The notes under the pieces: model-generated
Seen by the model: only the letters and a program-made list of their open reading frames with translations
Databases searched by the model: none
What the model was told of the DNA's origin: nothing
Shown: one piece after another, positions 3,884 to 51,923 of the stretch
Layout: every line of letters begins with the position of its first letter
Numbering within the stretch: position 1 is the first letter of the stretch
Position numbers and translations under genes: made by a program
Source of the DNA: Actinophytocola gossypii
GTDB lineage: Bacteria > Actinomycetota > Actinomycetes > Mycobacteriales > Pseudonocardiaceae
Assembly: GCF_025165815.1 (NCBI RefSeq)
Contig: NZ_JAFFZE010000004.1
Span: 434,001 to 498,000, forward strand
DNA: 64,000 nt
Reading direction: 5' to 3'

Positions 3884-4005
3884 GGCAACTCCTCGGACAG
3901 GCAGCGGGCCAAACCGAACGGTAATTGATCCGGACCTGGCTCGCAGGGCGTCGAACCGCCGGTACCGATGTTGCTCCCGCCGGGTGCCTGTGCCACTGTC
4001 GGGCC

Positions 4006-4494: not shown

Positions 4495-4509
4495 CGCCGG
4501 GTCGGACGC

Positions 4510-5352: not shown

Positions 5353-5452
5353 GCCTCCATGGTGCGCCGGTCCGGCGAGCCCAGCCAGGGATCCCCGGTC
5401 CCCCGACAACGGGCCCCTCCCGCGCCGGGCGCGGCCGACGCACAGTGGGGCC

Positions 5453-6211: not shown

Positions 6212-6229
6212 CCACGGAAGCAGGAGACC

Positions 6230-6436
6230 ATGCCCTACGCCAACCTGAAGATCCCCGCCGGCACCCTCACCGACGAGTCCAAGAAGAAGCTCCGGGACGC
6301 CGTCACCGACGCCTTCGCCACGGTCTACGGCGAACGCGCCCGACCGAACACCCTCGTGATCCTCGAGGAAGTGCCCGACGGCGGCTGGAGCCTCGGCGGC
6401 ACCGTCCTCAACGAGGGAAACCTCGGCCGCGTGTGA
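6230..6436 (+). CDS. 4-oxalocrotonate tautomerase-family protein
   Basis: This 68-residue protein starts Met-Pro, and the N-terminal proline exposed after Met removal is the catalytic base in this family. Conserved features are the PYANLKIPAG strand, the central helix (KKKLRDAVTDAFATVYG) and the C-terminal VILEEVPDGGWSLGG segment. Such proteins form small homo-oligomers and tautomerise or hydrate enol/keto acids. The start is preceded by CAGGAGACC, a good ribosome-binding site. It follows the SDR gene by 18 bp. Confidence 0.85.
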   Translation: MPYANLKIPAGTLTDESKKKLRDAVTDAFATVYGERARPNTLVILEEVPDGGWSLGGTVLNEGNLGRV

Positions 6437-6474
6437 CGGCGACACGTCCTTGTCCGCCGCTGTCCGGGTGACTT

Positions 6475-9400
6475 ATGTTTGTCCCCCGGTCGGGGGGTGA
6501 GGGGCCCACGGTGGCTGTTCGGATCCAGGTGTTGGGTTCGTTGCGAGTATGGCGTGACGGTGGGGAACTCGACCTCGGCCCGCCCGCCCGGCGCGCGGTG
6601 CTGGGGTTGCTGGTGCTCGGCGGCGGCGAGACGGTGACCACCCGCGCGCTGGTCGACGCGCTGTGGGGCGACCAACCGCCGCGCAGCGCGGTGAACGTGG
6701 TGCAGACCCACGTCAAACACCTGCGCCGGCTGCTGGAACCCGACCGGCCGTCGCGCACCGGCAGCGTGCTGCTGCCACACGTCAACGGCGGCTACGCGCT
6801 CAACCAGGACGCCGTCGACGTCGACCTGGCCCGGGTCCGCCGCCTGCTCGCCGAGGCCGACCACGACGGGGACCGGGCCGCGGCGTCGCTCGGCGAGGCG
6901 TTGCGGCTGTGGCACGGGCCGCCGCTGGCCGACATCCCGATGCTCGCCACCCAGCCGAAGGTCGTCGCACTGGTCGCCGAGCGGCGGAAGGTACTCGCCA
7001 GGTACGGCGACGTGATGATCGCGAACGGCGCCGCCACGGAGGTCCTGCCCGACATCGCCGCGGCGGCCGCCGAGCAACCGTTCGACGAACCGGCGCAGGC
7101 TCGGCTCATCCGCGCCTACCACGCGGTCGGGCTGCGGGCCACGGCTTTCCAGGTCTACCACGACGTTCGTGACCGGCTCGTCGAGGAGCTCGGGATCGAC
7201 CCCGGCCCTGAGCTGCGCGCGGCGCACACGGCGCTGCTGCACCCCGACGCCGGTCCGGCCACCGATCCCCTGCCGGCCCCGAGGGTGCCGAGGCAACTGC
7301 CGGCCGAGCCGCCGGGGTTCACCGGCCGGGTCGACCAACTGTCCGTTCTGGACCGGCTGCTGCCGAGGTCCGGCACCGGCGGGGCGGTGACGATCGCCGC
7401 GATCTCCGGCACCGCTGGCGTGGGCAAGACCGCGCTCGCCGTGCACTGGGCACACCGCGTCCGGGACCGTTTCCCCGACGGGGAGCTCTACGCGAACCTG
7501 CGTGGGCACGCGCACGGCCCACCGGCGCGGCCGATCGAGATCCTCACCCAGTTCCTGCTCGCCCTCGGCATCCCCGCCGAACGCGCTCCCGCCGACCTGG
7601 AGACCGCCTCCGCCCTCTACCGCACCATGATGACCGGCCGGAAGACGTTGGTACTGCTGGACAACGTCGCCGGGCCGGACCAGGTCCGGCCGCTGCTGCC
7701 GGCCGGCGCGGGCAGCATGGTCGTGGTGACCGGCCGGGACCAGCTGTCCGGGCTGGTCGCCACCCACGGCGCGCACCAGCTCACGCTCACCGTGCTGAGC
7801 CCGGACGACGCGCTGGAGCTGCTGGCCCGCGTACTGGGCGCCGAGCGGGTGCTGGCCGAACCCGAGCCGGCCGCCGAGTTCGCCAAGCTGTGCGTCTACC
7901 TGCCGCTCGCGCTGCGGATCGCCGCGGCCAACCTGGCCGACCACCCGTGGCTCGGGATCGAGGACCACGTCCTGGAGCTGCGCGACGGCAACCTGCTGGC
8001 CGCGCTCGCGGTGCAGGGCGACGAGCAGACGGCGGTGCGTACGGCGTTCGACCTCTCCTACGCCGCGTTGCCGGACGCCGCGCGGCGGGTGTTCCGCCTG
8101 CTGAGCCTGGTCCCGGGCACCGACGTCAGCACCGAGGCGGTCGCCGCGCTCGCCAGCACGGACCCCCGGGAGGCCGGTGCGCTGCTGCACCAGCTCGCCG
8201 GTGCCCACCTCGTCGAGCACTACGCACCGGGCCGGTACCGCTTCCACGACCTACTCCGCCGGTACGCGGCCGAGCAGCCGGAACCCGAGCGGGACACGGC
8301 ACTGGACCGGCTGTACGACTGGTACCTGCACGCGGTGGACGCCGCCGCCCGGCTGCTGTACCCGCACATGCTGCGGCTGCCGGTGCCGGTCACCGAGACA
8401 CGGGCACCCTCGGCCGTCACGGATCCGGCCACGGCGTCGGGCTGGCTGGACACCGAACGCGGGAACCTCGTCGCCGCGATCCAGCACGCCGGGTCGCGCC
8501 CGGTGGCGTGGCTGCTCGCCGACGCCCTGCGCGGCTACTTCTGGATGTGCGCGCGCAAGGTCGACTGGCAGACCGCGGCCGAGGCGGGCCTGGCCGCGGC
8601 CGAAGCGGCCGGGGACCCGATGGCACTGGCCGCCGCCCGGCTCAGCCTGGCCGACCTGAACTTCCGGCAGGGCAGGGCGCGGCTGGCCGTCCGGCACCAC
8701 ACCCACGCGCTGCTGTACGCCCGGCGAGCCGGTTGGCCGGAGGCCCAGGCGGCGGTGCAGGGCAACCTCGGCCTCGTCCACCGCCGGTCCGGTCGGCTCA
8801 CCAGCGCCGCGGCCCGGTTCGGGCGGGGACTGACGCTGAGCCGCGCGATCGGCCAGACCGCGGGTGAGGCGGTGGCACTGGGCAACCTCGGCCTGGTGCA
8901 CTGGGAGATGGGCCGGCTGGCGCTCGCGGCCGACCACCACGCCCAGGCGCTGCGCGGGCACCGGCGCGTCGGCTCGCGCTACGGCGAGGCGCTCAGCCTG
9001 AGCCACCTCGGTCAGGCGCAGCGCTCACGCGGCCTGCTGACCGAGGCGGCCGACGTGCTCACCAGGGCGGTCGAGCTGTACCGCGAGGCCGGCGCCCGCG
9101 CCGGCGAGGCGGAGGCCCGCGGCCGACTGGCCGCGACCCACGCCGACCTCGGCCGCCGGGCGGCGGCCCTCGACCACGCGCGGGCCGCGTTCGAGCTGGC
9201 CAGGGAGACCGGCGACCCGAGGGCCACCGCGGAGACACTGGCCACGCTCGCCGCCGTGCACCACGGTCTCGGGAACCGGCCGGAGGCCGTCGGCCGGTAC
9301 CGGCAGGCACTCGACCTGATCCGCGAGACCGGTGACCGGTACCCGGAGGTCGACGCGCTCATCGGCCTTGCGGTGGCGGCCGGGGAGGTCGGGACCGCCC

Positions 9401-9626: not shown

Positions 9627-9917
9627 TCATGCCGCCACCGCGCCGCCGTCGACGGGCAGGATCGCCCCGTGGATGTAGGAACTCTCCCCCGATGCGAGGA
9701 AGGCGACGGCCGCGGCGACCTCGTCCGGCAGGCCCAGCCGCCGAGCGGGGAGCAGTGCCGCGACCTGGTCGAGGCCCGCGCCGTCGTTGGTGCCTTCGGT
9801 ACGGATGGGACCGGGGCTCACGGCGTTGACCCGCACCCCCACCGGGCCGAACTCGGCCGCCCACGCCTTGGTGAGCAGCATCATGGCGGCCTTCGTCGAG
9901 CCGTACAGGCCGGCCGC
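9627..9917 (-). pseudogene. 3' fragment of an SDR oxidoreductase gene
   Basis: Only the C-terminal ~95 residues of a short-chain dehydrogenase remain. The preserved part begins at the catalytic YxxxK (LYGSTKAA) and continues through AAEFGPVGVRVNAVSPG to the typical C-terminus ILPVDGGAVAA. The Rossmann N-terminal half, including the GxxxGxG motif, is absent: reading upstream, similarity stops at about 9912-9917, where the sequence becomes an oppositely oriented cupin gene fragment. A start codon inside the remnant (9884) could give an 85-residue product but not an active enzyme. Confidence 0.75.
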
Positions 9918-10167
9918 CGGTGTGCACGGCCACGAGGGCTACGAGTGGCTCTACGTGCTCAACGGACGCCTCCGGCTCGTGCTGGGAGGCGAGAGCATCG
10001 ACCTGGTCACCGGAGAGGCGGCCGAGTTCGACACCCGCATCCCCCACTGGTTCGGTGCGTCAGGCTCCGAGCCGGTCGAGATCCTCGCTCTCCTCGGCAC
10101 GCAGGGCGAGCGCGCACACCTGCGGACGACAACCCCGACGAGTGGCGGGGCCCGCGCGGAAGCGTGA
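9913..10167 (+). pseudogene. 3' fragment of an XRE-cupin regulator gene
   Basis: About 82 residues of a cupin_2 domain are readable from about 9919, with GHEGYEWLYVLNGRLRLVLG and the ending EAAEFDTRIPHWFG. This is the C-terminal sensor half of helix-turn-helix/cupin regulators. The N-terminal helix-turn-helix and the start of the cupin are missing. The fragment abuts an SDR fragment on the other strand, so both genes lost their 5' ends and their shared intergenic region in one event. No functional product is expected. Confidence 0.7.
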
Positions 10168-18400: not shown

Positions 18401-21400
18401 TCACGGGCGGGAGAGCCGGTCGGCCAGCACGGCGCGGAAGTCGGCGTCCCAGGCCGCGACGGTCGCCTCGGTAAAGAGGTCCGTTGAGTACTCCCAGTGG
18501 ATCCGGTCTCCCTCGATCCGCACGTACAGCTCGGCGCGGGCCCCGCCGGGCACCGCCAGCCCGTGGATCTCGGACTCCACACCGGGAAGTGCCAGCCGGG
18601 GCGGTGGCGTGGTGACCACGGTCAACCGCACCGTCGGGAAGTGGCCGTCGGCGTGTTCGGGTGCCACCTCGGCGACCACGTCGTCGAGCGGCAGGTCCTG
18701 GTGATCCAGCCCGCCGAAGAGGCCGGCCGAGAACTCCCGCACCGGCTCCTCGGCACCCGGCCGGACCCGGACGAGCACGGCGTCCCCGACGATCCCCACC
18801 ACCCGCTCGTGCTCGGGCCGGCTCCGGTTCGCGCTGGACACCGCCAGCACCACCGCGTCGGTGCCGCACGCACGGGCGAGCCAGGTCGCGAACGCCGTGG
18901 CGAGCACCGCGTACGGGGTGCCACCCAGCTCGGCGGCCGCCGCCTCGATGCCGTCGACGATCTCGCGGGGCAGAACCGAGTCGTACGACGAGCCTCGCCC
19001 GGAGAGCGCCGCCGGCCGGGGCCGGTCCGCCGGCAACGCCGGCATGACGTCGACACCGGACAGCGCGCCGCGCCAGTACCGCACCAGTTCCGCCCGGCGG
19101 GACGGCGACGGGCCGGTGTGCTCCCACCGCGCGTAGTCGGTGTGCGGCACGGCGGGCGTCAGGTCGGCGTCCCGGTTCTCCCTGGCCGCCGCGTACAACT
19201 CGGCCAGCTCCTGCCACAGGATCGCCAGCGACGCACCGTCGCACACCATGTGGTGCAGCACCACGGCCAGCACCCACCGACGGTGGCCCAGCCGGCCGAG
19301 CCGGAACCGGCGCGGTGGCGGGCCGTCCAGCACGAACGGCGCTCCGGCCAGGTCCGCGCACCACCGGGTGACGGCCGCGTCGTCCAGGTCGCCGAGGTCG
19401 TCGACCGGAAGCGGTACCGGCTCCGGCGCGAGCACCTCCTGCACCAGCACGCCGTCCCGCTCGGCGACCCGCGTCCGCAGCGCGGCGTGCCGGTGCACCA
19501 GCCCCTCGACCGCGCGGCGCAACGCGTCCTCGTCGAGGTCGCCGGCGAGGTCGACCCGGTGCGCCACGTTGTACACGGCCGGCCGCGAGGTCGCGTGGTG
19601 CCGCCGCCACAGCCTGCGCTGCAGCGTGGTGAGCGGCGCGGTATCGACGACGTCACCGGTGAGGAGCCGGGCGAGTGCGCGGATCGTGGGTGCGCGGAAG
19701 AACTCCGTCATCGACGGGGTCCGGCCGAAGGCCTCGCCGACGCGGTTGAGCAGGCGCACCGCGGACAGCGAGTGCCCGCCGAGCGCGAAGAACGACCGGT
19801 CCACCGGCGCCGAGGTGCGGCCGGTCTCGGCGCACCACAGCTCGTGCAGGGTCACCTCGGCCGGGGTTTCCGGCGCGGCGTCCGCCGTACCGGGTTCGAG
19901 CGGGTCCGGCAGCCGCTCGCGGTCGAGCTTTCCGTTGGGGTTGACGGGAAGCCGCTCCATGGCGACCCAGTGGTGCGGCACCAGGTAGTGCGGCAGCAGC
20001 GTGCCGAGCCGGTCCGCGAGCGAGTCCGGCTGGACACCGTCGTCGAGCACGACGTGGGCGACCAGCTCCTGCTCGCCGCCGGACGTCCTCCGTGCCACGA
20101 CCGCCGCGTCCCGCACACCGGGCAGGTCGGCGAGCACCCGCTGGGTCTCCCCCGGCTCCGCCCGGAAGCCGCGGATCTTGACCTGGTCGTCACGCCGGCC
20201 GAGGAACTCGATCGTGCCGTCCGCGCGCCACCGGCCGAGGTCGCCGGTGCGGTACCGCCTGCCGTCCGGGCCCTCGACGAACACCGCCGCGGTCTCGTCG
20301 TCGCGGCCGAGGTACCCGTCGGCGACGGCGAGCCCGCCGATGACGATCTCGCCGACGGCGCCGAGCGGTGCCGGCTCGCCGTGCGGGTCGAGCACGTCGA
20401 CGGTGACGCCGTCGATCGGCGCGCCGATCGACGGCGTGGTGTCCCGTACCGGGTCCACCTCGGTGGACGTGACGATGATCGAGCCCTCGGTCGGGCCGTA
20501 CTGGTTGTACAGCAGGCAGTCCGGGTGCTCGGCGAAGAACCGGCGCACCGCGTCCGTCAGCACCAGCGGCTCACCCGCGGAGACCACCGCGCGCAGGTCC
20601 GGCAGGTTCGGCCGGCTCTCCAGCAGGTACCTCAGCGGCGTGTACGGCATGTGGATCCGCTCGACCCGGTCGGCGCGGGCGATGGCGGCCACGGCGGCCG
20701 GGTCGTGGCGCACGTCGTCGCCGACGAGCACGAGGCAGGCGCCCGCGGCGAGGGTGCCGAAGATCTCCTGCACACTCACGTCGAACGTGGGTGAGGTCCA
20801 CTGCAGCGTCCGCAGCGCCGGGTGGTGCGCCAGTTGCCAGCGGACGACGTTGGCCGGACCGCGGTGTGGCACGAGCACGCCCTTGGGCCGGCCCGACGAG
20901 CCGGACGTGTAGAGGCAGTAGGCGAGGTCGGCCGGGTCGACGTGGTTCGACGGCCGGGACGCCGAGCCGAGGTCGGCGGCCGGGGGCAGGGTCCGCGCGG
21001 TCAGCGACAACGCGGCGCCGCTGTCGGCCAGGACGAGGTCGACGCGTGCCCGGGGCAGCTGGGGGTCGAGCGGGAGGTAGGCCGCCCCGGACTTCAGCAC
21101 GGCGAGCAGGGCGACGACGAGGTCGGCTCCCCGGTCGAGCCGCACGGCGACGAGGTCGCCGCGGCCGATGCCCCGCGCGCCGAGCCAGTTCGCGAGCTGG
21201 TTGGCGCGCTCGTCCAGCTCGCGGAAGGTCAGCTCGGTCTCCCCGTCGATCACGGCGGTGCCGTCGGGGGTCCGGTCGACCTGCCGCTCGACGAGGTGGT
21301 GCAGGCACGGCGGCGCGGGCAGGGTCTCGCCCTGCCGGGCCGCCCGGCGGGTGCGTTCCTCGTCGGTGGCCGAGGTGAGCGCCGACAGCGGCGCGGACGG

Positions 21401-24400
21401 GTCGGCGACCGCTCGCCGCAGGGTGGTCTCGAAGTGGGTGAGCAGCCCGCGCACGGTGCCCTCGGTGAACAGGTCGGTGTCGTACTCGACGGAGATCCGC
21501 AGCCCGTGCGCGTGCCGCGTGAGGTAGAGCGAGAGGTCGAAGGGCGCCCGGTCGGCCGGCACGTCGAGGATCCTGGCGGCGATCTCTGGCGTGAACCCCA
21601 CCGCCGACTCGTGCTCGAACTCGACCATCACGGTGAACAGCGGGTTGCGGCCGGCGTCGCGGACCGGGTTGAGCGCACCGACGAGCTCGTCGAACGGCAC
21701 GCGGTGGTCGTAGGCGTCGACGGTGGTCTCGCGGACGCGGGCGATGAGCTCGGTGAAGGTGGGGTCGCCGGACAGGTCGACGCGCAGCGGGACGGTGTCG
21801 AGGAACAGGCCGATGTGATCGGCGGCGTCGCGTGGCCGGTTGTCGACGGCGGTGCCGAGCACCACGTCGTCCTGGCCGGCGAACCGGCCGAGCACGGCGG
21901 CGACGGTGCCGAGCGCGGCCATGAAGAGCGTGGCCCCACCCGCCTGGGTGATCGTGGTGAGCCGGTCGAGGAGGGCGCCGTCGAGCTCGTGGTTGAGCGC
22001 GGCGCCGTCGCCGGAGCGGGTCGACCGGCGTGGGTGGTCGGTGGGCAGGAGGAGCTCCGGCGCGCCGGCGAGCCGGGCACGCCAGAACTCGACGTCCGCC
22101 GCGGCGGCGTGGTCGTCCGCGCCGGCTTCGAGCGGGGGCAGCGCCGGAAGACCGGCCCGGGTTCGGTAGCACTCGGCGAGGTCGCGGACGAGCACGGCGG
22201 TCGAGGCGGAGTCGAACACGATGTGGTGCGCGGACAGGAACAGCAGGTGGTGCCGGTCGGACAGCCGCACGAGCCGGGCGGTGACCAGGGGGCCGTCCGC
22301 GAGGTCGAACACGGTTCGCCCGGAGGTGTGCAGGGCGTCGTGCAGTGCCTCGTCCTCGGTGGCGCCGGGCAGGTCGACGAGCGGGCAGTCGACCGTGGCG
22401 TCCGGGAGCACGAGGCGGTACGGCTCCCCGTCGCCGTCCCTGTCGCCGTCGCGGAAGACCGTGCGCAGTGCTGGCTGACGTTCCACCACGTGCCGCAGTG
22501 CCCGTTGGAGCGCGGCCGCGTCGAGCGGTCCGGTGAGGCGGATCGCCTTCGGCTCGTGGTAGATGCGCTGGTCGGGGTAGAGCCGGTCGAGGAACCAGAT
22601 GCGCCGCTCGGCGTCGGTCAGTGGCCGCCGTCCCGGCGCGAACGCCGCGCGCAGAGTGTCCAATGTGGGCAGTGCGGCGAGCACGCTGTCCTTCTGGACG
22701 CCGAAGTCGACGAAGCACGCGATCTCGTCAGCTCCCGCGTCGAGCAGTTGGCGGACGACCGCCGAGGAGCTGTCGACCGTGCCGATGAGCGCGCGGGACT
22801 CGCAGTACCGCCGGTAGGCCTGGCCGAGAAGGAACTCGACGTCGTCCTCCGGGGTGGTGGCGAGGTCGATGTCGACGCCGAGGCTGGTGGTGACCTGGTC
22901 GAAGAGGGACAGGGAGGAGCGCAGGTAGGCGCAGAAGGGTTCGAAGGCCTCCTGGCGCACGCGGTCCAGGTCGTCGCCGAGGTAGGTGTGCACGAGGACG
23001 ACGACGCGGCCCGCGTCGGGGTCGAGCCCGTGCTCGGCGCGGGTGCGGCGGTAGAGCGCCACGTTGGCGGCGAGGGCGTCGACGGTCTGGGCCATCAGGT
23101 TGGTGACCACGCCGAGGTCCTCGGCGGCGGCCCGCCGGTAGCTGTCCGGGTTCCCGACGACCGCGACGTACATGGGCGGCATGTCCTGGACCGGGCGTGG
23201 GTGGCTGCGGACCCGGACGACGTCGCCGGAGCCGGAGGTGGCCTCGACGTCCTCGCCGGCCCACAGCCGCCGGACGGTGTCGAGGTGGGTGTACATCAGT
23301 TCGCGGTGCTCGCCGAAGTTGTCGGGCGCGAGCACGAAGTCGGTGGCGTGCCAGCCGCTGGCCGCACAGATCCCCACCCGTCCGCCGGAGAGGTTGTCCA
23401 CGACGGACCACTCCTCCGCGACCCGGACCGGGTGGTGCAGCGGTAGGACGACCGATCCGGCGTGCAACCGGACGCGCTCGGTCTGGGCGGCGAGTGCCGC
23501 GGCGAGCACGGACGGGTTGGGGAACAAGGCGCCGAAGGAGTGGAAGTGCCGCTCGGGCAGCCACAACGCGTGGAAGCCGTGCTCGTCGGCGAACCGGGCG
23601 GCGGAGGTGATGAGGGCGTACTTGTCGGTCTGCTGCTCGTCCGGGTAGTCCCCGAAGAAGTAGAGACTGAAGTCGGCGCTGCTCCGCCGCTCACCCGGCG
23701 CCGAGGGCGGCGGAGCGGGTAAGGGCGGCTTGGATAACGGCGGCTTGGATAAGGGCGGGGTCGATAAGGGCGGGGTCGATAAGGGCGGCGTGCCGCTCGG
23801 TGCCGTCATGCTGGCCCGCAGGGCGGTCAGCTGCTCGGACATCAGGTCGGTGACACGCTCGATCATCCGTTCGGTGACGGCCAGCTGCCGCTCCACGAGC
23901 GCCGACAGGTCCCCGCCGTCGGCGCCGTCGACACCGCGCTCGACGTCGCCGCCACCAACGCCGTCACCAACGCCGTCACTCTCCGGTTCCGACCGTGCGG
24001 GTGGCGGCTCGCTCGCCTCGGGTGCGCCGGGCGAGGTGGTCGTCTCGGGCGTCGCGGCCGGGGGTCGCGGTCCGATCAGCTCGGCCAGCTTCCTCGGCGT
24101 GTCCGCGTCGCCGAACAATGCTCTGATCGGCACCCGTACGCCGAACCGCTCCTCGAGGTCCCGGGTCAGGTTCATCAGCGACAGCGAGTCGCCGCCGAGG
24201 TGCACGAACGTGTCGTCCGGATCGACCTGCCGCTCGGTCGTGCCGAGCAGCCGCGCGGTCAGCTCCCGCACCTCGCGCAACGGACCCGCCTGGCTCGGAC
24301 CGTTCGATCCGAACGGGTGGCCGGGCAACGGGATCCGTCGGCCCGGCGTGGTCGACCCGGTCATCGCACTCCATTCGATCCGCCTGCCTCGCCGGTACAG

Positions 24401-27400
24401 CTCGCCGACGGCGCGCAGCAGCGCCACCGGCACGTCCCCGGTTCCCGCGAGCGTGGGCCGCCACCGCGCACCAGCGCGCCTCGCCAGCCTGGTCAGTGCC
24501 TCGCCCGGGCCCACCTCGAGCACGTCCTCGCCGGCCACCGCGGCGAGCACCTGGTCGAACCGGACGGTGCCGCGGGCGTGCCGGCGCACGTAGTCACCGT
24601 CCGGCACGTGTCCGGCCGGCAGCACCCGCCCGTCCAGGCCGCTCACCATCGGCACCCGCAGCGGTCGCCAGCCGACGCGGGCGGCGTGCCGCGCCAGCTC
24701 GTCCAGCACGGGCTCCACCAGGCTCGTGTGGAACGCCCGGTCGGTGCCCAACCGCACGCACGCGATCCGCCGCCGCTCCGCCAGATCGGCCGCCCTCGCC
24801 ACCGAGTCCACCGAGCCGCTCAGCACGTGCGTTGTCGCGCCGTTCACCGCGGCCAGCTCGGTGCCGCTGGCCGCCGCCAGCTCCGCCGTGACCGTCGCGT
24901 CCGCGTTCACCACCAGCATCCCGCCAGGTGCGGTCGCGCCCAGCAGCTCACCGCGCGCCGTCGTCAACACCAGTCCGTCCTCGATGGACAGCGCGCCCGC
25001 CGCGTACATCGCCGCGTACTCGCCGTGGCTGTGGCCCGCCACCAGGTCCGGCCCCACCCCCACCGACCGCCAGAACGCCACCAGCGCCACCTGGAACGCG
25101 AACAGCACCGACTGCGGCTCGCGCACCGCGGCGCCGCGCAGCTGAGCCAGCAGCCCCGGCCGCACGCGCTCACACTCGTCCAGCACCGCGCGCACCGCCG
25201 GGAACGCGTCGTACAGTTCGGTCGCCATGCCGGGGCGAACACCGTCCTGGCCGGAGAACGCGAACACGAGCCGGCCGATGGGGGCCGGCTCGTGCTCCAG
25301 GGCGTGCTCCAGGGCGTTGTCCAGGGCGCCGGCGAGTTCGGCGACCGTGCGACCGGCGACCGCGAGCCGGCACCGGAGATGCTCGCGCCCCAGGGCCAAC
25401 GTCGTCGCGACGTCCGCTGCGGACAGGTCCGGGTGAGACCGCAGGTGGTCCACCAGCCTGCCCGCGAGTACGGTCAGCGACTCGTCGTCCTTGGCCGACA
25501 CCGGCACCAGGACGGCCTCCCGGGACGGTCCGCGCTCCGGCCGCGCGGGCGGCTCCTCCAGCACCACGTGCGCGTTCGTGCCGCCCACGCCCAACGCGGT
25601 CACCCCGGCCCGGAGCGGCCGTCCCCCGGCCGTCCACGGGCGACGTTCGGTCGCGAGCGTGAACGGGCTGCCCGCCAGCGGCAGCGCGGGGTTCGGCGTG
25701 CGCAGGTGCACGGTCGGGACCAGCTCCCGGTGCCGCAGCATCAGCACCACCTTCAGCAGTCCCGCCATGCCCGCGCAGCTGTCCAGGTGCCCCACGTTCG
25801 GTTTGACCGAACCCACCGCGCACGAACCGGCTGGCACGCCGTCGAACGCCTCGCACAGCGCGTCGAACTCCACCGGGTCGCCCAGCTCGGTGCCGGTGCC
25901 GTGTGCCTCCACATAGGACACCGTCCCGGCGTCGGCCCCGGCGCGTCGCAACGCCTCGCGGATCACGCCGACCTGGCCGGTCACGCTCGGCGCGCTGAAC
26001 CCGACCTTGTCCGTCCCGTCGTTGTTGATCGCCGAACCGAGGATCACCGCGTGCACGGTGTCGCCGTCCGCGAGGGCCGCCTCCAGCGGTTTCAGCAGTA
26101 CGGCCGCCACGCCGTTCCCGCCGACCGTGCCGTCGGCGTCCGCGTCGAAGGCACGACACCGACCGGTCGGCGACAGGATCGACCCGGGATGGTGGCGGTA
26201 GCCCGCCTCCTGCGGCAGCCGCACCGCGGCCGCGCCCGCGAGGGCCAGGTCGGCCTCCCCGGACAGCACCGCCCGCGCCGCCAGGTGCACCGCCACCAGC
26301 GACGTCGAGCACGCCGTCCTGACCCCGACGGCCGGCCCGGTCAGCCCGAGCCGGTACGCGACTCTCGACGCGAGGAAGTCCGGCTCGGCGCCGATGGTCG
26401 TCCGCATCGCGGTGGCGCCGTCCTCGTCGCCTTCCTCGTCGCCGTTCGGCCGCGGGTCCTGGTGCCCGTACAGGTTCATGCCGTCGCCGGCGAACACCGC
26501 GACCCGCTGGCCGCGGACCGCGTACCCGGCGTGCTCCATGGCCTGGTGGCAGCACTCGAGGAACAGGCGGTGCGCCGGCGCGGTCAGCTCGGCCTCCCGG
26601 GGGCTGATGCCGAAGAAGCCGTGGTCGAACTCCGACACGTCGTCGAGCGCCCCGGCGACCGGTTGGAACGCGGGGTCGGCCGCGACCCGCGCGGGCACCC
26701 CGGCGGCCGCGACCTCCTCGGCCGAGAAGCGCCGCACGCTGTCGACGCCGTCCCGGAGGTTCGCCCAGAACTCGTCGGGGGTCCGCGCGCCGGGGAACCG
26801 CAGGGCCATCCCGACGATCGCGACCTTGCCGCTGGTGGACGCGGCGCCGCTGGTGTCCCGGCTCGTGGCCAGTCCGCCCGCCAGGTGAGCGGCGAGCGCG
26901 GCCGCCGTCGGGTACCGGTACATCGCGGTCCGGGCGATCTCCCGGTCGAGCTCGCGGGACAGCGCGGTCCGGGCCCGGATCAGGTCCACGGAGGTCAGAC
27001 CGAGGTCGTGGAACGGAGTGTCGGCGTCCACGTCCCGGCCGAGGACGGACGCGAGCACCGCGCGCACCCGGTCGGCGACCTCGACGTCCGGCCGTGCCGC
27101 TCCGGCCCGAACCAGGTCGGGCAACGCGTTCCGGCGTACCTTGCCGCTCGGTGTCCTGGGGAAGTCCCGCCTCGGCACGGCGACGACCTCGCCGGTGAGG
27201 CCCAACCGCTCGAACAGCGCCGCGCGGACCTCGGCGACGAGCCGATCCGTGCCGGTCTCGTCGGTGCCGACGACGACGTGCAGTCGCTCGGTGCCGGACC
27301 GCTCGTCCGGGATGCCGCACGCGCCGACCCAGCCGCTCACCACACCGGCCACGCCACCGGCGACGTCCTCGATCTCGTGGCAGAAGTGGTTGTGCCCGTT

Positions 27401-28810
27401 GAGGATGATGACGTCCTTGACGCGCCCGGTGATCACCACCTCACCGCCGGCGACGAACGCGAGGTCACCCGAGTCCAGCCACGTGCGGCCGGTGCGCTCG
27501 TGGTCGGGGAACAGCGCGCGCGTGCCGTCCTCGTCGCCGAGGTAGCCGGGCGTGACCCGCGGCGACCGCACCTGCAGCCTGCCGACCCGCCCTTCCGGCA
27601 CCACGTCGTCGTGCTCGTCCACGACGCGCAGCGCCGCACCGGGGGCGGGCGGGCCGACGGAGACCAGGGTGACCAGGTCACGGTCCGGGACCGAGTCGTC
27701 CGCCCGCACGAGGTCACCGCTCATGCTCGACTTCAGCAGCCGGTGCACGGCGGCCGGGGTGTACCGGCCGAGGGTGATCGCCGTGGTGGTCTCCGCCATC
27801 CCCCACACGGGCCGCACACAGTCGCCGGGGAGGCCGAACGCCCGGGTGGCGTCGAGAAAACGGGACACGACCGCAACGGTGACCTGCTCGCCGCCGGTGA
27901 CCATGGTCCGGATCCCGGACAGGTCCCAGCAGCGGTCACAGTCGGGGTCGCTGCCGGCGAGCGCGTCGGCGACCAGCTGGTAGGCGAAGTTGGGTGCCCA
28001 GCCGTGCTGCGCGCGGTGCTCGACGAGCAGGTCGAGCCACAGCAGCGGGTCGCCGAGGACGAGGTCGGTCGGGGCGTGCACGTTCGTGGCGCCGACGAAC
28101 ACCTCCAGCACGTGGTACAGGAGCAGGGCTCCGCTGTGGTCGAGCGGCATCCAGTTGACGCTGGTGTGTTCCGGCCGCAGGTCGAGCCCGCGGCGGGAAC
28201 TCGCGGCGAACTCGGCGAGCGCGTGGTGGGTCAGCCGCACCGCCTTCGGCGGGCCGGTGCTGCCGGAGGAGAGCATGAGCAGCGAGGTGTCGTCCCCCTG
28301 CGGCCGGTGCGGGTCGGCGGGTTCGGCCGCCGCGCACTCGTCGACACCGGTCACGGAGCCGCACTCGCCGGTAGCGCGGAGCCGGTCCACGGCTTCCGCG
28401 CCGGTCAGCACGAGTGGGCGGCGGAGTAATCGACAGACGTGCGCGAACCGTTCGGCCGCCGCCGGTGACGGGTCGTCGGACATCGGCTCGGCGATCACGG
28501 CCGGGGTGATGCCGCCGAGCAGGCACGCCCACAGCGCGGGGAAGAAGTCCGGCAGCGGCAGCCCGTGCAGCACCACCGCGTCGCCGGGACGGCGGCCGCG
28601 GGTGCGCAGCCCGGCGAGCAGGTGCCGTGCCCGCCGGAGCAGCTCCGGGTAGGTGAGCCGGACGGCCCGACCGGGCGAGGTCACCGCGACGACGGCGCTG
28701 TCCGGGTGGTGTTCCGCCGCACGCAGCAGAGCGGCGCGGGCGTCAGGTGGGTCGTCCTCGTCGTGGACGAGCGGCGCGCCCACGGTCATGGCCATCGGTC
28801 TAGTCGACAT
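18401..28810 (-). CDS. Hybrid PKS-NRPS with acyl-ligase loading and luciferase-like monooxygenase domains
   Basis: This protein of about 3,469 residues is a multidomain synthetase. Domains in order: acyl-AMP ligase (~15-590, [10 protein letters not shown] near 178), ACP (Ser607), KS (~659-1085, Cys834 in TACSTSL, plus EAHGTGT and GHLD), AT (~1175-1470, Ser1261 in GHSHGE, RAFH near 1357 suggesting malonyl-CoA), ACP (Ser1542), a Pro-rich linker (~1585-1700), MupA/Atu3671-type FMN monooxygenase (~1705-2060), C (~2062-2490, HHIVFDS), A (~2500-2990), PCP (Ser3014) and a terminal C (HHMVCDG near 3187). No ketoreductase, aminotransferase, epimerase or thioesterase is present. The likely product is an acyl chain extended by one malonate, oxidised, and coupled to one amino acid. 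The start is uncertain: ATG at 28810 overlaps the MFS stop; ATGs at 28795 and 28789 are alternatives. Confidence 0.93.
23720..23794 (-). repeat. 15-bp tandem repeat inside the PKS-NRPS gene
   Basis: Five head-to-tail 15-bp units of the type TAAGGGCGG(C/G)(T/G)T(G/C)GA (plus-strand reading) encode a repeated Pro-Pro-Leu-Ser-Thr/Lys linker between ACP2 and the monooxygenase domain. Two units are identical and the others differ at one to four bases, so the array is recent and may vary in length between strains. Confidence 0.85.
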
Positions 28811-30113
28811 CCTTTTCCACACTCCCAGCGGGTGCCGTGGCGCGGCGGAGGGCGAACGCGACGGCGAGCAGAGCGGTAGCGGCGAGGAAAGCGACACCGT
28901 GGAAGATCGCGACGACGGTCACCTCCGGGGCGGCCTCCAGCACCGCGGAGCTGCTCAACATCCCGACCGCGAACCCCGCGGTCTCGGCGGTCGCGGACAT
29001 GCCGAAGAGGCGGCCGCGTTGCTTGTCGGGGGCGGCCTGCAACCGCGAGGTGTAGACGATCTCGGTCCAGCCGTCGGCGAGCCCGGCCAGCAGCGCCACC
29101 GCGATCAGGGCCGGCCCGGCCGGGACGGCGAAGGCGAGCACGAAGCCCACCGACATCAGGCAGGTGCCGAGCCCGAACGCCCGCTCCCCCAACGCTTCCC
29201 CGTGTCGCCACCGGCGGAGGACCTGGTGCGCGAGGAGCGTCCCGACCGCCCAGGACGCCCAGAACTGGCTCATCACGACAGCGGGCTCGGCGCCGTCGAG
29301 CCGGCTCGCGTAGAGCGGGAGGGCCATGTTGTGCGACGCGGACCCGAAAGCGTCCGCGCCGCGTACCGCGATCATGAGGACGACGACGGGACCGGCGAGC
29401 GCGAGCAGCGTCCGTTCCGGCCGTCCCGGCGCGGTGCCGGTCGCGGTGCCGGTCGAGTCGTCGTCCGCGCGGGTGGGGAGCCGAAGGACGACCAGCGCCA
29501 TGGCGGATACGACGAACGAGGCGGCGTTGAGGTAGAACGCGGCCGCGAACCCGCCCGACGCCACGATGACGCCCGCGGAGGCGAAACCCAGCACGGTGCC
29601 GATCGACCGCCCGGTGACGAGCTGGCCGTTGGCCCCGACCCGTTGGTCCTGTCCGACCATCGCGGGCACACTGCTGCGCAGCGCGACGTTGAACAGGGCG
29701 TTGCCGGCCCCGAGCACGACGGCGGCGGCCACCAGGAGCCCGACGTTCGCCGGCCCGGCCGCGAGCGCGACCATGGCGGTCGCCTGAGCGAGGTCCGTGC
29801 CGATCATGAGGCGCCGCCGGTCGAACCGGTTCACCAGCCACCCGGCGACGAGCCCCGTGCCGAACCCGGCCCCGAGCCGCAGCGCCATCACGATGCCGAC
29901 ACCGAGCGGACCACCGGTGACCGCGAGCGTGAACAGGCTCAACGCGACCAGGTTGAGGTAGTTGCCGTACGCGGAACACGAGTACCCGACCACCAGCACC
30001 CGGAAGTTACGCGGCGGGCCAGCCAACAACGCTCCCGTTCTCCGACGGCCAGGTGGACGGCGCCCAAGGTGGCACAGGTCGATGGCCAACGGGGCCACTG
30101 AGGCGAAGATCAC
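28800..30113 (-). CDS. MFS transporter, probable exporter of the PKS-NRPS product
   Basis: This 437-residue membrane protein has about 12 predicted helices and the MFS loop pattern (GWLVNRFDRRRLMIGTDL after helix 2). It resembles the MFS_3/enterobactin-exporter-like group common beside actinomycete biosynthetic genes. Its stop codon lies inside the start region of the PKS-NRPS gene, so the two are almost certainly co-transcribed and coupled. The assigned ATG gives an Arg-rich N-terminal extension of about 35 residues before the first helix (NFRVLVVGYSCSAYGNYLNL), so a later start is possible. Confidence 0.85.
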   Translation of the reverse strand: MIFASVAPLAIDLCHLGRRPPGRRRTGALLAGPPRNFRVLVVGYSCSAYGNYLNLVALSLFTLAVTGGPLGVGIVMALRLGAGFGTGLVAGWLVNRFDRRRLMIGTDLAQATAMVALAAGPANVGLLVAAAVVLGAGNALFNVALRSSVPAMVGQDQRVGANGQLVTGRSIGTVLGFASAGVIVASGGFAAAFYLNAASFVVSAMALVVLRLPTRADDDSTGTATGTAPGRPERTLLALAGPVVVLMIAVRGADAFGSASHNMALPLYASRLDGAEPAVVMSQFWASWAVGTLLAHQVLRRWRHGEALGERAFGLGTCLMSVGFVLAFAVPAGPALIAVALLAGLADGWTEIVYTSRLQAAPDKQRGRLFGMSATAETAGFAVGMLSSSAVLEAAPEVTVVAIFHGVAFLAATALLAVAFALRRATAPAGSVEKDVD

Positions 30114-30201: not shown

Positions 30202-30912
30202 TCATCCGTCGGACGAGCCGGCGAAGTTGATCTCACCGAACGGAGTGCTGGCGATGCCGCCCTCGCGCATCTTCGCGGAGAATTCCTGGAGGGCCTTGGT
30301 GTCGTTCAGGTGCGGATACGGCGTGTCCGGCACGTCGACGCCGAGGAACGCGCACAGCGGCTCCCAACCGTCGCTGGCCTCGTGCACCAACAGCCGACCG
30401 GCCGGTGCCGTGGCGCGAACGTGATCGACGTGGCGCTGGTAGACCTCGACGGCGTCGTCCTCGCTCGGCGCCCGGTCGGCGTGCCCGAACGTCGCGCCGA
30501 ACACCAGATCCAGCATGGCGCCCGTCGCACCGAGACGGTCGCTGGGGCGGCCGTCGGCGTCGATGCCGGCGAAGATGGTCTCCCGCATGCTGCGGTACCA
30601 CCGGTGCGGGTCCCGGGTCGTCAGGATGATCTTCGCCTCGGGGTAGGCCGCCGCGATCTCCTGCCAGAAGTGGCCGGACGGCCAGTCGACGGCCGACCGG
30701 TACCCCTCGAGCACCCAGTCCCAGTCCACGGTCCGGCGCTGGTCCGACGTGTCGTGCTTGGCCAGCGCCGCCGCGTGCCAGCGTTCGCCCTGCTCGGGGT
30801 TCGCGAACACCTCGAACATGTGGTGGCACGGGCCGAAACCCAGTTGGTCCAGCGCCGCCTTCATCGACGACGTCCCGGTCCGCGGGAACCCCGCGCCGAT
30901 CACCTTCACCAT
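30202..30912 (-). CDS. PAPS-dependent sulfotransferase family protein
   Basis: This 236-residue protein has the 5'-phosphosulfate-binding loop GAGFPRTGTSSMKAAL (residues ~6-21) and the 3'-phosphate-binding segment KIILTTRDPHRWYRSM (~95-110). It belongs to the small sulfotransferase-like group (Sulfotransfer_4), members of which act on unknown substrates. AGGAGG lies eight bases before the ATG. It sits 88 bp upstream of the MFS and PKS-NRPS genes on the same strand, so it is a candidate tailoring enzyme, but a hairpin lies between them and the link is only positional. Confidence 0.82.
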   Translation of the reverse strand: MVKVIGAGFPRTGTSSMKAALDQLGFGPCHHMFEVFANPEQGERWHAAALAKHDTSDQRRTVDWDWVLEGYRSAVDWPSGHFWQEIAAAYPEAKIILTTRDPHRWYRSMRETIFAGIDADGRPSDRLGATGAMLDLVFGATFGHADRAPSEDDAVEVYQRHVDHVRATAPAGRLLVHEASDGWEPLCAFLGVDVPDTPYPHLNDTKALQEFSAKMREGGIASTPFGEINFAGSSDG

Positions 30913-33109: not shown

Positions 33110-34072
33110 TCAGCCGATGAAGCCCTGTTTCCGCAGCCATTCGGCCGCGACCTTGGCCGGCGCGGCGCCCTCGACGCTCACCTGTTCGTTCAGCGCGAGC
33201 AGCGTCTCGTCGTCGAGTGCCTCGGCGATCGGGGTGAAGACGTCCTCGAGGCCGGGGTACTTCGTCGCGAGTTCGGCGCGGATCGTGATCGCCGGGTTGT
33301 AGACCGGGAAGAACGACCTGTCGTCCTCCAGCACGACCAGGTCCTGGGCGGGGATCCGGCCGTCGGTGGACGCCACCGAGCCGAAGTCGCAGGTCTTGCC
33401 CGAGCCGACCTCGGTGTAGACGACGGCGTCGTTGACCTCGTGCCGCTGCGCGTCCGGCAGCGTGAAGTCGTACATCGCGGCCAGGCCGGGAAGCCCGTCG
33501 TCCCGGCTGTTGAACTCCGGACCCATGCAGGTCGACGCCGCCGCCGGGTTGGTGTTCGCCAGCTCCGCGTAGTCCGAGATCGTCGTGATGCCGTGTTCCT
33601 CGGCGGCCTCGCGGTTGGCGGCGATGGCGTAGGTGTCGTTGCCCGGTGCGCGCGCCCACCAGGTGACGCCGTTCTCCGCGTCGAGCGTCCTGACCCGGTC
33701 GAACAGCTGCTCCGGGTCGGTCACCCGTTCGGTCTGCTTCAGGAAGGAGACCCAGGCGGTGCCGGTGTACTCCCAGTACAGGTCGATCTGGCCGGTGGTG
33801 AGCGACCGGCGGACCGCGTCCGTACCGGTGATGTTCGTCTCGTCGACCGGATCGGCGCCGGCGGCCTGCAGCGCGAGGATCGCGATCTGGCCGAGCACCA
33901 GCTGCTCGTCGAACTCCTTCGACCCGACGGTGATCGACACGCCGCTGAGCTCGTCGATCCGCTCGATGGAGCCGGATCCGGTCTCGGCCCGGGGGGACTC
34001 CTCCTCCAGCGTGCAGCCGGCGGCCAGCACCACGAGGCCGACGACGACGGCGACGACCGACAAGCCGCGCAT
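33110..34072 (-). CDS. Glycine betaine/choline/proline ABC transporter substrate-binding lipoprotein
   Basis: This 320-residue lipoprotein has the lipobox LAAGC (Cys20) followed by an OpuAC-type type II periplasmic-binding fold. Typical stretches are ITVGSKEFDEQLVLGQI, TGQIDLYWEYTGTAW and ISDYAELANTNP. It binds quaternary amines or similar osmolytes outside the membrane and delivers them to the two permeases encoded upstream. It is the last gene of a four-gene operon (permease, ATPase, permease, binding protein), 26 bp after the second permease. The exact ligand is not determined by sequence alone. Confidence 0.9.
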   Translation of the reverse strand: MRGLSVVAVVVGLVVLAAGCTLEEESPRAETGSGSIERIDELSGVSITVGSKEFDEQLVLGQIAILALQAAGADPVDETNITGTDAVRRSLTTGQIDLYWEYTGTAWVSFLKQTERVTDPEQLFDRVRTLDAENGVTWWARAPGNDTYAIAANREAAEEHGITTISDYAELANTNPAAASTCMGPEFNSRDDGLPGLAAMYDFTLPDAQRHEVNDAVVYTEVGSGKTCDFGSVASTDGRIPAQDLVVLEDDRSFFPVYNPAITIRAELATKYPGLEDVFTPIAEALDDETLLALNEQVSVEGAAPAKVAAEWLRKQGFIG

Positions 34073-34097
34073 GAGAGTTCCTCCTCGAATCGACGGG

Positions 34098-34874
34098 TCA
34101 CATTCCCTTGGGGCGCAAGAACATCTCGGCCAGCAGGCCGAGCCAGTCGGCGAACAGGGCGAGGGCGGCCACCAGCACCCCGAAGGTGACGCTGATGACC
34201 GGCCGGTTCAGGGAGAGGCCGGTGAACAGCCCCTCCCCCAGCCCGCCGCCGTCGATCAGGGCGGCCAGGGGCGCACTGGCGACGGTCAGCACCAGCGCGG
34301 TGCGGACGCCGGCGAGGATGACCGGCACGGCGAGCGGCAGTTCCACCGTGAACAGCACCGCGAGCCGGGACAGCCCCATGCCGCGGGCGGCCTCGGTCAG
34401 CACCGGGTCGACGCCCTCGATGCCGACCATGGTGTTGCGCAGTACCGGCAGCACGGCGTAGGCGACCAGGGCGATCACCGCCGTGCCGACGCCGATGCTG
34501 ATCACCAGGGCGAGCAGGACGATCAGGCCGACGGACGGGATGGCCTGGCCGAGGTTCCCCAGGCCGAGCACCACCACCCGCCCGACCCGGCTGCGCGACA
34601 GCGAGACGGCGACCCCGAGCGGAACCGCGATGGCGATCGTCAGCGCGGTGCAGATCAACGTCAACTCGACGTGCTCGAGCACCTGGGACCCGATCACCTC
34701 GCCGTTGACGTTGCGCGCCTCGATCGAGTCCAGGCGCTGTCCCCGCGTCCACAACCACAGCACCAGCAGGCCGGCCACGATCAACGCGGGCCGCACGAGC
34801 AGGCCCGCCCACCGCGGCCGTCCGGTTCCGCGTGCCGCCCTGGCCGGGCGGCGGGCTTGGATCGGTGCCGTCAT
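34098..34874 (-). CDS. Osmolyte ABC transporter permease (ProW/OpuCD type)
   Basis: This 258-residue membrane protein has five to six helices and the EAA loop (LTEAARGMGLSRLAVLFTVELP) that contacts the ATPase. The N-terminal 20 residues are Arg/Ala-rich and cytoplasmic. It starts with an ATGA overlap with the ATPase stop, so it is translationally coupled. It pairs with the permease at 35862-36512 to form the heterodimeric channel of a quaternary-amine importer. Confidence 0.9.
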   Translation of the reverse strand: MTAPIQARRPARAARGTGRPRWAGLLVRPALIVAGLLVLWLWTRGQRLDSIEARNVNGEVIGSQVLEHVELTLICTALTIAIAVPLGVAVSLSRSRVGRVVVLGLGNLGQAIPSVGLIVLLALVISIGVGTAVIALVAYAVLPVLRNTMVGIEGVDPVLTEAARGMGLSRLAVLFTVELPLAVPVILAGVRTALVLTVASAPLAALIDGGGLGEGLFTGLSLNRPVISVTFGVLVAALALFADWLGLLAEMFLRPKGM

Positions 34875-35869
34875 GGGTTCCCGGCTTCGCCGGCGGCCGC
34901 GCCCATCACCATTCGCAGGTCCAGCGACCCGATCACGGTGGCGTCGTCGCCGAAGTCGTCGGTGACCAGCACCACGTCGCTGCCCTCGCCGAGCATCAGG
35001 TCGAGCGCGTCGCGCGCCGTCGCCTCGACCGCGATCCGCGGCAGTCCCTCGGCTCGCGGTGCCGGGGCCAGCTCGACGTCCCGCAGTCGCAGCAGGGCCA
35101 GCTTCTTCAGCTGTCCCCCGGCGCCGATGAAGCTGGCGACGTAGTCGTCGGCGGGGGCGGCCAGGATCGCCTCCGGGGTGTCGTACTGGGCGATCACCGA
35201 CCTCGGCCGGAGCACGGCGATCCGGTCACCCATCTTGAGCGCCTCGTCGAAGTCGTGGGTGACGAACACGATGGTCTTGCGGACCTCCCGCTGGAGCCGC
35301 AGGAACTCGTTCTGCAGGTGGTCCCTGGTGATCGGGTCGGTCGCGCCGAACGGCTCGTCCATCAGCATCACCGACGGGTCGGCCGCGAGCGCCCTGGCGA
35401 CCCCGACCCGCTGCTGCTGGCCGCCGGACAGCTCGCGGGGGTAGCGCCGGGCGTAGTCCGCCGGAAGGCCGACCAGTTCCAGCAGCTCGGCGACCCTGGC
35501 CCTGATCCGGGACCTGCTCCAGCCGAGGACCTTGGGCATCAACCCGATGTTGTCCTCGATCCGCTTGTGCGGGAACAGGCCGATCTGCTGGATGACGTAG
35601 CCGATGTCGCGCCGGTGCTGGTCGGGGTCGAGCGTGAGCACGTCGGTGCCGCCGATCGTGATGGTGCCCGAGGTCGGCTCGATCAGCCGGTTGATCATCT
35701 TCATCGTCGTGGTCTTGCCGCAGCCCGACGGTCCGACCAGGACGACGACCTCGCCGGCGGGAATGACCATCGACACCGCTTCGACGGCGGGCTCCGCCTG
35801 ACCGGGGTAGCGCTTCGTGACGTCGGTGAGCTCGATGGTCTCCCCGGGGCGGCCGGTGGGTTCAGGCAC
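34871..35869 (-). CDS. Osmolyte ABC transporter ATP-binding protein (ProV/OpuBA type)
   Basis: This 332-residue ATPase has Walker A GPSGCGKTTTMK (~52-63), signature LSGGQQQRVGVARAL and Walker B VMLMDEPFGATD. After the nucleotide-binding domain a shortened C-terminal region (~240-332) resembles a single or degenerate CBS unit, which in OpuA-type importers senses ionic strength. The GTG start overlaps the end of the upstream permease by 8 bp. It powers osmolyte uptake for the two permeases and lipoprotein of this operon. Confidence 0.92.
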   Translation of the reverse strand: MPEPTGRPGETIELTDVTKRYPGQAEPAVEAVSMVIPAGEVVVLVGPSGCGKTTTMKMINRLIEPTSGTITIGGTDVLTLDPDQHRRDIGYVIQQIGLFPHKRIEDNIGLMPKVLGWSRSRIRARVAELLELVGLPADYARRYPRELSGGQQQRVGVARALAADPSVMLMDEPFGATDPITRDHLQNEFLRLQREVRKTIVFVTHDFDEALKMGDRIAVLRPRSVIAQYDTPEAILAAPADDYVASFIGAGGQLKKLALLRLRDVELAPAPRAEGLPRIAVEATARDALDLMLGEGSDVVLVTDDFGDDATVIGSLDLRMVMGAAAGEAGNP

Positions 35870-36512
35870 GGATCCCCCGTGAGGTGGTGAGCCTGGCGAC
35901 GCCGGCCAGCGCCAGGTCGAACAGGAGTGCGAGCAGGATGATGCCGAGGGTGCCGGTGAGTACCTGGTTGAGTGAGTTGGCGCCGCCGAACCGGCCGAGC
36001 CCGTCGAAGATCTGGTTGCCCAGGCCGGGCCCCTGTACCCAGGCGCCGATGGCCGCGATCCCGATGATGATCTGGGTGGAGACCCGGACCCCGGCGAAGA
36101 TCACCGGCCAGGCCAGCGGGAGCCGAAGGTCCCAGAGCACCCTGGTCCGGCTCAGGCCCATGCCGCGGCCCGCCTCCACCACGGCCGGGTCCACCTCCTG
36201 CAGGCCGACGATCGTGTTCCGGGTGATCGGCAGCAACGCGTAGACGACCAGCGCCACGAGCACCGGCAGCACGCCGAGGCCGAACGGCGCGATGAGCACC
36301 CCGAGCAGCGCGACCGACGGGACGGTCAGGAACGCGCCGGTGGTCGTCGTGGCCAGCGCCGCGAGCGTCGAGTGCCGGTAGGTGAGCATCCCGAGCCCCA
36401 CGCCGATGACCACCGCGATCGCGATCGCGCCCAGGGTCACGTCGAAGTGCAGGATGGTGTCGTTGACGATCGTGATCCAGTTCTCCCGCAGGTACTCCGC
36501 AAAGGTCACCAC
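35862..36512 (-). CDS. Osmolyte ABC transporter permease, first gene of operon
   Basis: This ~216-residue membrane protein has the typical OpuBB/ProW topology and EAA loop (VVEAGRGMGLSRTRVLWDLRLP). Two consecutive GTG codons (36512 and 36509) follow AGGAGG; the second has the better five-base spacing. It is the promoter-proximal gene of the osmolyte importer, so regulation should act in the ~100 bp upstream, where I see no clear operator. Confidence 0.88.
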   Translation of the reverse strand: MVTFAEYLRENWITIVNDTILHFDVTLGAIAIAVVIGVGLGMLTYRHSTLAALATTTTGAFLTVPSVALLGVLIAPFGLGVLPVLVALVVYALLPITRNTIVGLQEVDPAVVEAGRGMGLSRTRVLWDLRLPLAWPVIFAGVRVSTQIIIGIAAIGAWVQGPGLGNQIFDGLGRFGGANSLNQVLTGTLGIILLALLFDLALAGVARLTTSRGIRA

Positions 36513-46843: not shown

Positions 46844-46860
46844 TGTCTCTCCCCAATCTC

Positions 46861-48369: not shown

Positions 48370-48389
48370 GTGGCCTCCTCCTGCTGGGT

Positions 48390-50695: not shown

Positions 50696-50703
50696 GCCCG
50701 GTA

Positions 50704-50731
50704 GTGTTATCGCTAACAATCAGGCCGTCAA
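50704..50731 (-). promoter_or_regulatory. Arabinose operon promoter with LacI-type operator
   Basis: On the minus strand TTGACG (50731-50726) and TAACAC (50709-50704) are 16 bp apart. The palindrome TGTTAGCGATAACA (50718-50705) covers the -10, so binding of the adjacent LacI-family regulator would block RNA polymerase. Confidence 0.78.
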
Positions 50732-50789
50732 GACGTATTGATCACTTGTCGAGTAATCGAAGTGAACGCGCACATGAGCGCGCGAAGGA

Positions 50790-51821: not shown

Positions 51822-51923
51822 CGCCGAACCTCGCTCCGGGTCATGATCGTCCTGTCCAGGTCCAGTGTCGCACCCGGCAGCGGGTTCGGAGCGTGGCACG
51901 CACTCGTTCGGCGCGTCCCGGGG

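Follow-up and report, generated by a model that had tools for sequence, protein, structure and literature searches.

What does a hybrid polyketide synthase-nonribosomal peptide synthetase (PKS-NRPS) make when it carries a luciferase-like monooxygenase (MOX) and lacks both an aminotransferase (AMT) and a ketoreductase (KR)? The question is raised by a single gene on the minus strand at 18401..28810 of a 64,000-nucleotide stretch of Actinophytocola gossypii DNA (contig NZ_JAFFZE010000004.1, positions 434,001 to 498,000), hereafter the window, to which coordinates refer unless another locus is named. Its product has the domain order FAAL-ACP-KS-AT-ACP-MOX-C-A-PCP-C, where FAAL is a fatty-acyl-AMP ligase. 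On balance, we favor a self-contained one-enzyme locus with its own exporter, in which the synthetase would make an N-(2-hydroxy-3-oxoacyl) amino acid, the terminal C domain would release it and the exporter would carry it out of the cell. This reading builds on the observed architecture, intact motifs, conservation, exporter partner and rejection of a single origin of the AMT-less state.

Overall architecture of the synthetase

The longest open reading frame (ORF) of the synthetase begins with GTG at 28897 and encodes 3498 residues, and domain residues are numbered from this codon. Residue 30 is a methionine at 28810, and this ATG, which would give a protein of 3469 residues, is the likely start codon. 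From 28810, the gene would overlap the upstream major facilitator superfamily (MFS) gene by 11 bases, an arrangement suggestive of coupled translation. At the G+C content of the window (72%), long antisense ORFs occur frequently. In the synthetase frame, third-position G+C is 0.94 and the main domains match Pfam with E-values of 2.8e-32 or lower; these values, together with the conserved motifs, rule out a broken or chance ORF.

Eleven Pfam families were found in the protein, and KR, AMT, dehydratase (DH), enoylreductase (ER), methyltransferase (MT), epimerization (E) and thioesterase (TE) domains are not among them. The domain order and the absence of KR and AMT had been proposed in a preliminary description that gave no strand; Pfam and NCBIfam profiles bear out the former and the Pfam scan the latter. 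The usual active-site motif is present in each domain. Conservation of the motifs was counted over 90 ORFs, AMT-bearing ones included (the pattern matched both).

The acyl ligase (27113..28780, residues about 40-595, Pfam AMP-binding) is called FAAL-like by resemblance, as the NCBIfam fatty-acyl-AMP ligase models match below their cut-offs. The three PP-binding stretches of the protein (Pfam) are ACP1 (26882..27085, residues 605-672, with its Ser motif at 633), ACP2 (24068..24280, residues 1540-1610, Ser kept in 82/82) and the PCP (19658..19864, residues 3012-3080, Ser kept in 85/85). The extension module comprises KS (25538..26830, residues 690-1120, ketoacyl-synt 2.9e-68), whose catalytic Cys is kept in 75/75, and AT (24488..25276, residues 1208-1470, Acyl_transf_1 2.8e-32), presumably of the malonyl type by its motif. 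A helix-like linker (23816..23902, residues 1666-1694, pattern match) lies between ACP2 and MOX. The NRPS part opens with C1 (21353..22630, residues 2090-2515, Condensation), in which HHxxxD is kept in 90/90.

Monooxygenase domain and its putative substrate

The MOX domain (22649..23671, residues 1743-2083) belongs to TIGR04020, the MupA/Atu3671 family, scoring 485.1 bits, about twice the curated cut-off of 244.45. Its nearest structure in the PDB is PuwE (6ket, 406.6 bits). It is placed between ACP2 and C1 and not within the A domain, as it would be in an MtaG/MelG-type insertion, and MOX and AT are domains of one protein, unlike the trans-AT bimodule with its separate oxygenase and trans AT.

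The preliminary description regarded a beta-keto thioester at the MOX as unusual chemistry. This was not supported: MupA hydroxylates beta-ketoacyl-ACP and leaves the beta-hydroxy analogue unchanged (PMC10952193). Because MupA is the namesake of the family, a beta-ketone appears by analogy to be the normal substrate of such enzymes. The unusual point would come later, as no step encoded in the gene removes the ketone, which should survive. Since neither KR nor AMT follows, the domain anatomy leads us to infer that the 2-hydroxy-3-oxoacyl chain should pass to C1 unchanged.

The same family relationship lends itself to a different outcome, in which MOX performs an oxidative rearrangement or C-C cleavage (Favorskii-like or Baeyer-Villiger-type) and the chain reaching C1 is not a 2-hydroxy-3-oxo acid. 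A Favorskii-like rearrangement has reportedly been proposed for FbnE (Atu3671) of fabrubactin, and Baeyer-Villiger-type reactions were suggested for CalD and MndB of the family. The 2-hydroxy-3-oxo thioesters produced by MupA are described as unstable (PMC10952193). However, the same paper gives a mass gain of +16 Da on the intact chain for MupA, and PuwE, the closest PDB structure to the MOX, is described with plain alpha-hydroxylation, AMT and MOX together giving a 3-amino-2-hydroxy acyl unit (PMC4219810). We therefore regard rearrangement or cleavage as rather unlikely, and simple alpha-hydroxylation as the preferred reaction.

Distribution of the architecture

Relatives were collected by scanning genome contigs with the MOX domain, and the best 80 of 506 were kept. 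Genes in these loci were predicted with a simple rule based on G+C, and their domains were assigned by BLAST searches that used the domains of the window synthetase together with AMT and KR seeds taken from locus L090, a procedure that can miss divergent domains and plain short-chain dehydrogenases/reductases (SDRs) and had no TE seed. Among these best 80 loci, 70 MOX ORFs show ACP-MOX-C without AMT, seven carry AMT before MOX and three are truncated ahead of MOX; 58 have the window's full single-gene order. Over all fetched loci plus the window, 62/104 MOX ORFs have this order, 51 of them complete and ten with ACP1 undetected, the last (L115) having FAAL in two pieces and ACP1 undetected. These 62 come from Pseudonocardiaceae, Streptomyces, Kribbella, Micromonosporaceae and others, and they are not all independent because the MOX domains of L118 and L023 are identical. 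With 506 MOX relatives, the idea that the gene is unique to this genome was discarded.

At 1e-70 or better, 33/200 same-family genomes match (the window's own counted), most at 39-60% identity and many with other architectures. Matches of at least 65% in this draw were found in G574, G532, G477, G504, G512 and G523, of which that of G512 and one of the two of G532 are in AMT-bearing or longer frames. Within the genus, 3/5 genomes match, none above 51%, and in a draw from the phylum 7/396 match, own genome counted. The locus is thus widespread and patchy. A split form was seen in L074, L086 and L088, where an ACP-MOX-C-A-PCP gene is followed by an ACP-KS-AT gene and neither FAAL nor terminal C was seen in the locus.

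Gain and loss of the aminotransferase

Microginin/puwainaphycin-type synthetases have a class III aminotransferase between ACP and MOX. The window synthetase has none there, and it shares their fatty acyl ligase start, single KS-AT-ACP extension and NRPS module after MOX. The preliminary description had stated that related synthetases usually pair the MOX with AMT or KR, and such AMT-bearing sisters do exist, some also with KR: among the long linkers read (all but those of L068, L075, L076 and L078), L081, L090, L092 and L114 have AMT between ACP2 and MOX and KR between FAAL and ACP1. The latter is an odd position for a KR. The KR seed matched 0/75 AMT-less ORFs.

In the MOX tree (105 rows, MupA, CalD and FbnE not among them), the window falls in a 68-row clade of 66 AMT-less and two cut-off rows (support 97/86). 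The AMT-less L098 is placed among the AMT-bearing L082, L090 and L114 (100/100), and the rows with MOX embedded in the A domain form one separate clade. Long branches (L093, L115, PuwE, L116) limit the detail of the tree. Forcing all 78 rows that lack AMT, three cut-off rows among them, into one clade lowers the log-likelihood by 109 units (p-AU 8.3e-5), and a single origin of the AMT-less state is rejected. The other one-clade test (p-AU 3e-91) says little, as it held the AMT-bearing rows with the distant PuwE and left L116 outside the held group. The AMT between ACP2 and MOX therefore came or went more than once in the synthetase lineage.

The linker after ACP2 bears on the direction of change. 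Its helix-like pattern occurs in 58/75 AMT-less and 5/8 AMT-bearing linkers; the pattern is loose, and at least one match, the glutamine-rich one of L026, is due to chance. In the AMT-bearing sisters, a stretch like that of the window precedes the AMT. The pattern would be compatible with AMT loss from a shared frame without proving which way the change went; we consider loss from a microginin/puwainaphycin-like ancestor more probable than gain.

Adenylation and terminal condensation domains

The A domain (19904..21292, residues 2536-2998, AMP-binding) has the code DVQHVAQIIK, read like all codes here at the GrsA positions. DVQ codes presumably resemble those for proline and pipecolate; the PDB neighbors of the domain leave its substrate unfixed. 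Among 77 A domains, DVQFFAQVIK (17) and DVQFFAQIIK (11) are the commonest codes and the Micromonospora and Kribbella relatives differ, and the products of the family should be related, not identical.

The terminal C domain (18413..19639, residues 3087-3495, Condensation in two stretches) is followed by no TE. Its PDB neighbors, Txo2 and Txo1, leave its type unfixed. The second His and the Asp of its motif are kept in 72/72 and the first His in 68/72 (AMT-bearing rows included). One 78-row clade takes in the terminal C domains of both AMT-less and AMT-bearing synthetases, whether fused or separate (FastTree, local support 99, with long-branch warnings); separate terminal C genes were sought in ten named loci. 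In L089 (5718-7223), the domain has a gene of its own, which encodes 501 residues including a TubC_N docking domain and shares a few bases with the synthetase gene. The terminal C domain is thus a usually kept, separable unit, and judging from the sequence its work is likely release, acceptor capture or ring closure.

A C domain at the end of a protein may also be the first domain of a next module, with the chain handed to an A-PCP protein elsewhere, so that the synthetase would make the start of a longer lipopeptide. The docking domain of L089 is in line with this, as is L080, where the next ORF after one 191-residue gene encodes A-PCP-C. On the other side, no NRPS gene follows within the window (further NRPS genes of the genome were not searched), and the first or second downstream genes of 20 relatives are without A or PCP domains. 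Hand-over to a next module thus seems unlikely, and release by the terminal C domain remains the reading that we favor.

Exporter partner and genomic neighborhood

The MFS exporter gene (28800..30113, minus strand, MFS_1 2.5e-27) is the usual partner of the synthetase. Homologues occur in 73/101 loci at 39-64% identity, some alignments being partial: 58/61 other full-order loci, 66/74 AMT-less loci, 7/14 AMT-bearing loci (contig ends cut off several) and 0/10 loci with MOX inside the A domain. In a clustering of short neighbors (L019-L098 plus the window), the MFS cluster comprises 31 loci and a second one 19, the latter probably being the MFS gene read in its antisense frame; all others comprise at most eight. 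In L068, an MFS gene lies downstream and the upstream one is absent. The upstream exporter is the only regular neighbor of the synthetase. The breadth of the architecture, the exporter as usual partner and the terminal C domain as a conserved unit go beyond what a single sequence could show the preliminary description.

A KR or AMT elsewhere in the genome might act in trans and give an ordinary 3-hydroxy or 3-amino product, as the preliminary description had considered. An SDR gene lies at 60695-61573, 32 kb from the synthetase (adh_short 157 bits, KR 33 bits), SDR genes (cluster 4) occur in six related Streptomyces loci, and genomes of such size hold many unlinked reductases. Yet every AMT found is built into a synthetase, and no gene family except MFS and its likely antisense cluster is present in more than eight loci. 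Seed BLAST over neighborhoods up to 10 kb found no AMT or PKS-type KR in the relatives' AMT-less ORFs or linked to them in their other ORFs; among the loci searched, the seeds match other ORFs only in L116. Tailoring in trans is thus improbable, and the ketone of the proposed product should persist.

Besides the synthetase, 38 genes of the window were scanned against Pfam (the short predicted genes 117-326, 6230-6436, 9627-9884 and 9787-10167 were left out), and no PKS thioesterase, phosphopantetheinyl transferase or class III aminotransferase is among them. A sulfotransferase gene (30202..30912, minus strand, Sulfotransfer_4) lies between the MFS and PucR-type regulator genes, and its membership in the locus is doubtful. 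The sulfotransferase, PucR and DUF1905 genes were rejected as conserved pathway members, each with homologues in 0/101 loci (flanks up to about 10 kb). Nothing ties the SDR gene, an old-yellow-enzyme type flavin oxidoreductase gene (58811-59929) or an alpha/beta hydrolase gene with a TAP-like C-terminus (52639-54177) to the synthetase. The first or second downstream same-strand genes of 20 relatives belong to unrelated Pfam families or none, with agreement only between L059 and L063. A DmdR/IdeR-type iron box was also rejected, as the window has none at up to three mismatches to a single consensus, which is a weak test of a siderophore role.

The window further holds an ordinary glycine-betaine-type ABC transporter operon (33110-36512) and an arabinose-type operon (42961-51899) with sugar ABC transporter, L-arabinose isomerase, FGGY kinase and LacI regulator genes. 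In L099, on a Streptomyces aurantiacus plasmid, the phosphonate genes aepX and aepY lie just upstream of MFS and synthetase, together with two transketolase genes and one for a class IV aminotransferase (3067-7613); this set, seen in L099 only, might supply an amine there.

Proposed biosynthetic pathway

The steps, substrates, product and mode of release that we propose are as follows. The ligase would load a fatty acid onto ACP1, and KS and AT would add one malonyl unit. MOX would then hydroxylate the alpha carbon of the beta-ketoacyl chain on ACP2, with FMNH2 supplied by a general flavin reductase. Without AMT or KR, the 2-hydroxy-3-oxoacyl chain would go on to C1, which would couple it to a single amino acid, proline-like by the code. 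Release of the product by the terminal C domain would be either to an acceptor drawn from primary metabolism or within the chain, and export would fall to the MFS protein. Any unusual chemistry would accordingly lie not in the MOX substrate, where the preliminary description had placed it, but in the absence of any subsequent step on the ketone, and in release by the terminal C domain.

Several points weigh against this pathway. The amino acid code depends on positions transferred from GrsA. No terminal C domain was found in the MOX ORFs of the AMT-less L074, L086, L088, L091 and L119, so that release cannot rest on it everywhere. Among other AMT-less loci, 8/74 are without the MFS gene (L024 has little upstream sequence), and a downstream gene encodes a P450 in L087 and a GNAT protein in L069. 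The six Streptomyces loci with the cluster 4 SDR gene are close relatives, and the gene lies several genes upstream, in a region where they have other chromosomal genes in common; the SDR gene of the window is 32 kb away, and the KR seed would miss plain SDRs. In the open-licence literature searched, neither a paper on this architecture nor a characterised product of it was found; such papers may exist elsewhere.

More tentatively, and with less confidence than in the pathway itself, we suggest that an exporter-linked one-enzyme family dropped AMT repeatedly, exchanging a protease-inhibitor-like 3-amino-2-hydroxy head for a persistent 2-hydroxy-3-oxo acyl amide of proline-like amino acids, released by a dedicated terminal C domain. 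FK506 and rapamycin contain a tricarbonyl-imino-acid group, and if the suggestion is true, one further oxidation would make the head resemble it. Many soil actinobacteria would then hold a class of small natural products that has not been described. The locus is small (synthetase and exporter, about 12 kb), intact and common to many cultured strains, which makes this orphan product class testable with two genes. The AMT-bearing and AMT-less sisters provide a natural comparison set for gain and loss of tailoring domains, and the terminal C domain without a thioesterase is a simple case for what such domains do.

Comparison with known systems

MicA of microginin biosynthesis reportedly shares the fatty acyl start, one PKS module, MOX and NRPS, whereas it is said to have an aminotransferase and to be followed by more NRPS proteins. 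The pipecolate modules FkbP and RapP (FK520, rapamycin) are likewise said to consist of one NRPS module C-A-PCP-C without TE that uses a cyclic imino acid, but reportedly close a large polyketide ring that other proteins assemble; the likeness is by domain order, not sequence.

PuwE of puwainaphycin biosynthesis (PDB 6ket) has KS-AT-ACP, luciferase-like MOX and C-A-PCP and a fatty acyl start, the last provided by separate genes (PMC4219810). It differs in its AMT before MOX, the 3-amino-2-hydroxy acyl unit and a long peptide line with TE. The mupirocin alpha-hydroxylation bimodule uses the same monooxygenase family, and MupA takes a beta-keto acyl-ACP. In contrast, MupA is a separate protein of a trans-AT system with KS0, and a KR reduces the ketone afterwards (PMC10952193). 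Enzymes of the MtaG/MelG type also have a luciferase-like MOX in an NRPS, but it is located within a glycine A domain and oxidises the amino acid (PMC11342130). Corallorazine-type synthetases were rejected on the same source, their MOx sitting in the A domain, and the kribbellichelin and sandramycin clusters (PMC9962454) were rejected as a match.

The AMT-bearing sisters L081, L090, L092 and L114 share FAAL, KS-AT, MOX and C-A-PCP with the window synthetase, with the terminal C domain fused in L090 and separate in L081 and L092, and with MFS genes in L090 and L092; they differ in having KR between FAAL and ACP1 and AMT between ACP2 and MOX. The synthetase of A. gossypii is thus a variant of the known FAAL-PKS-MOX-NRPS kind.

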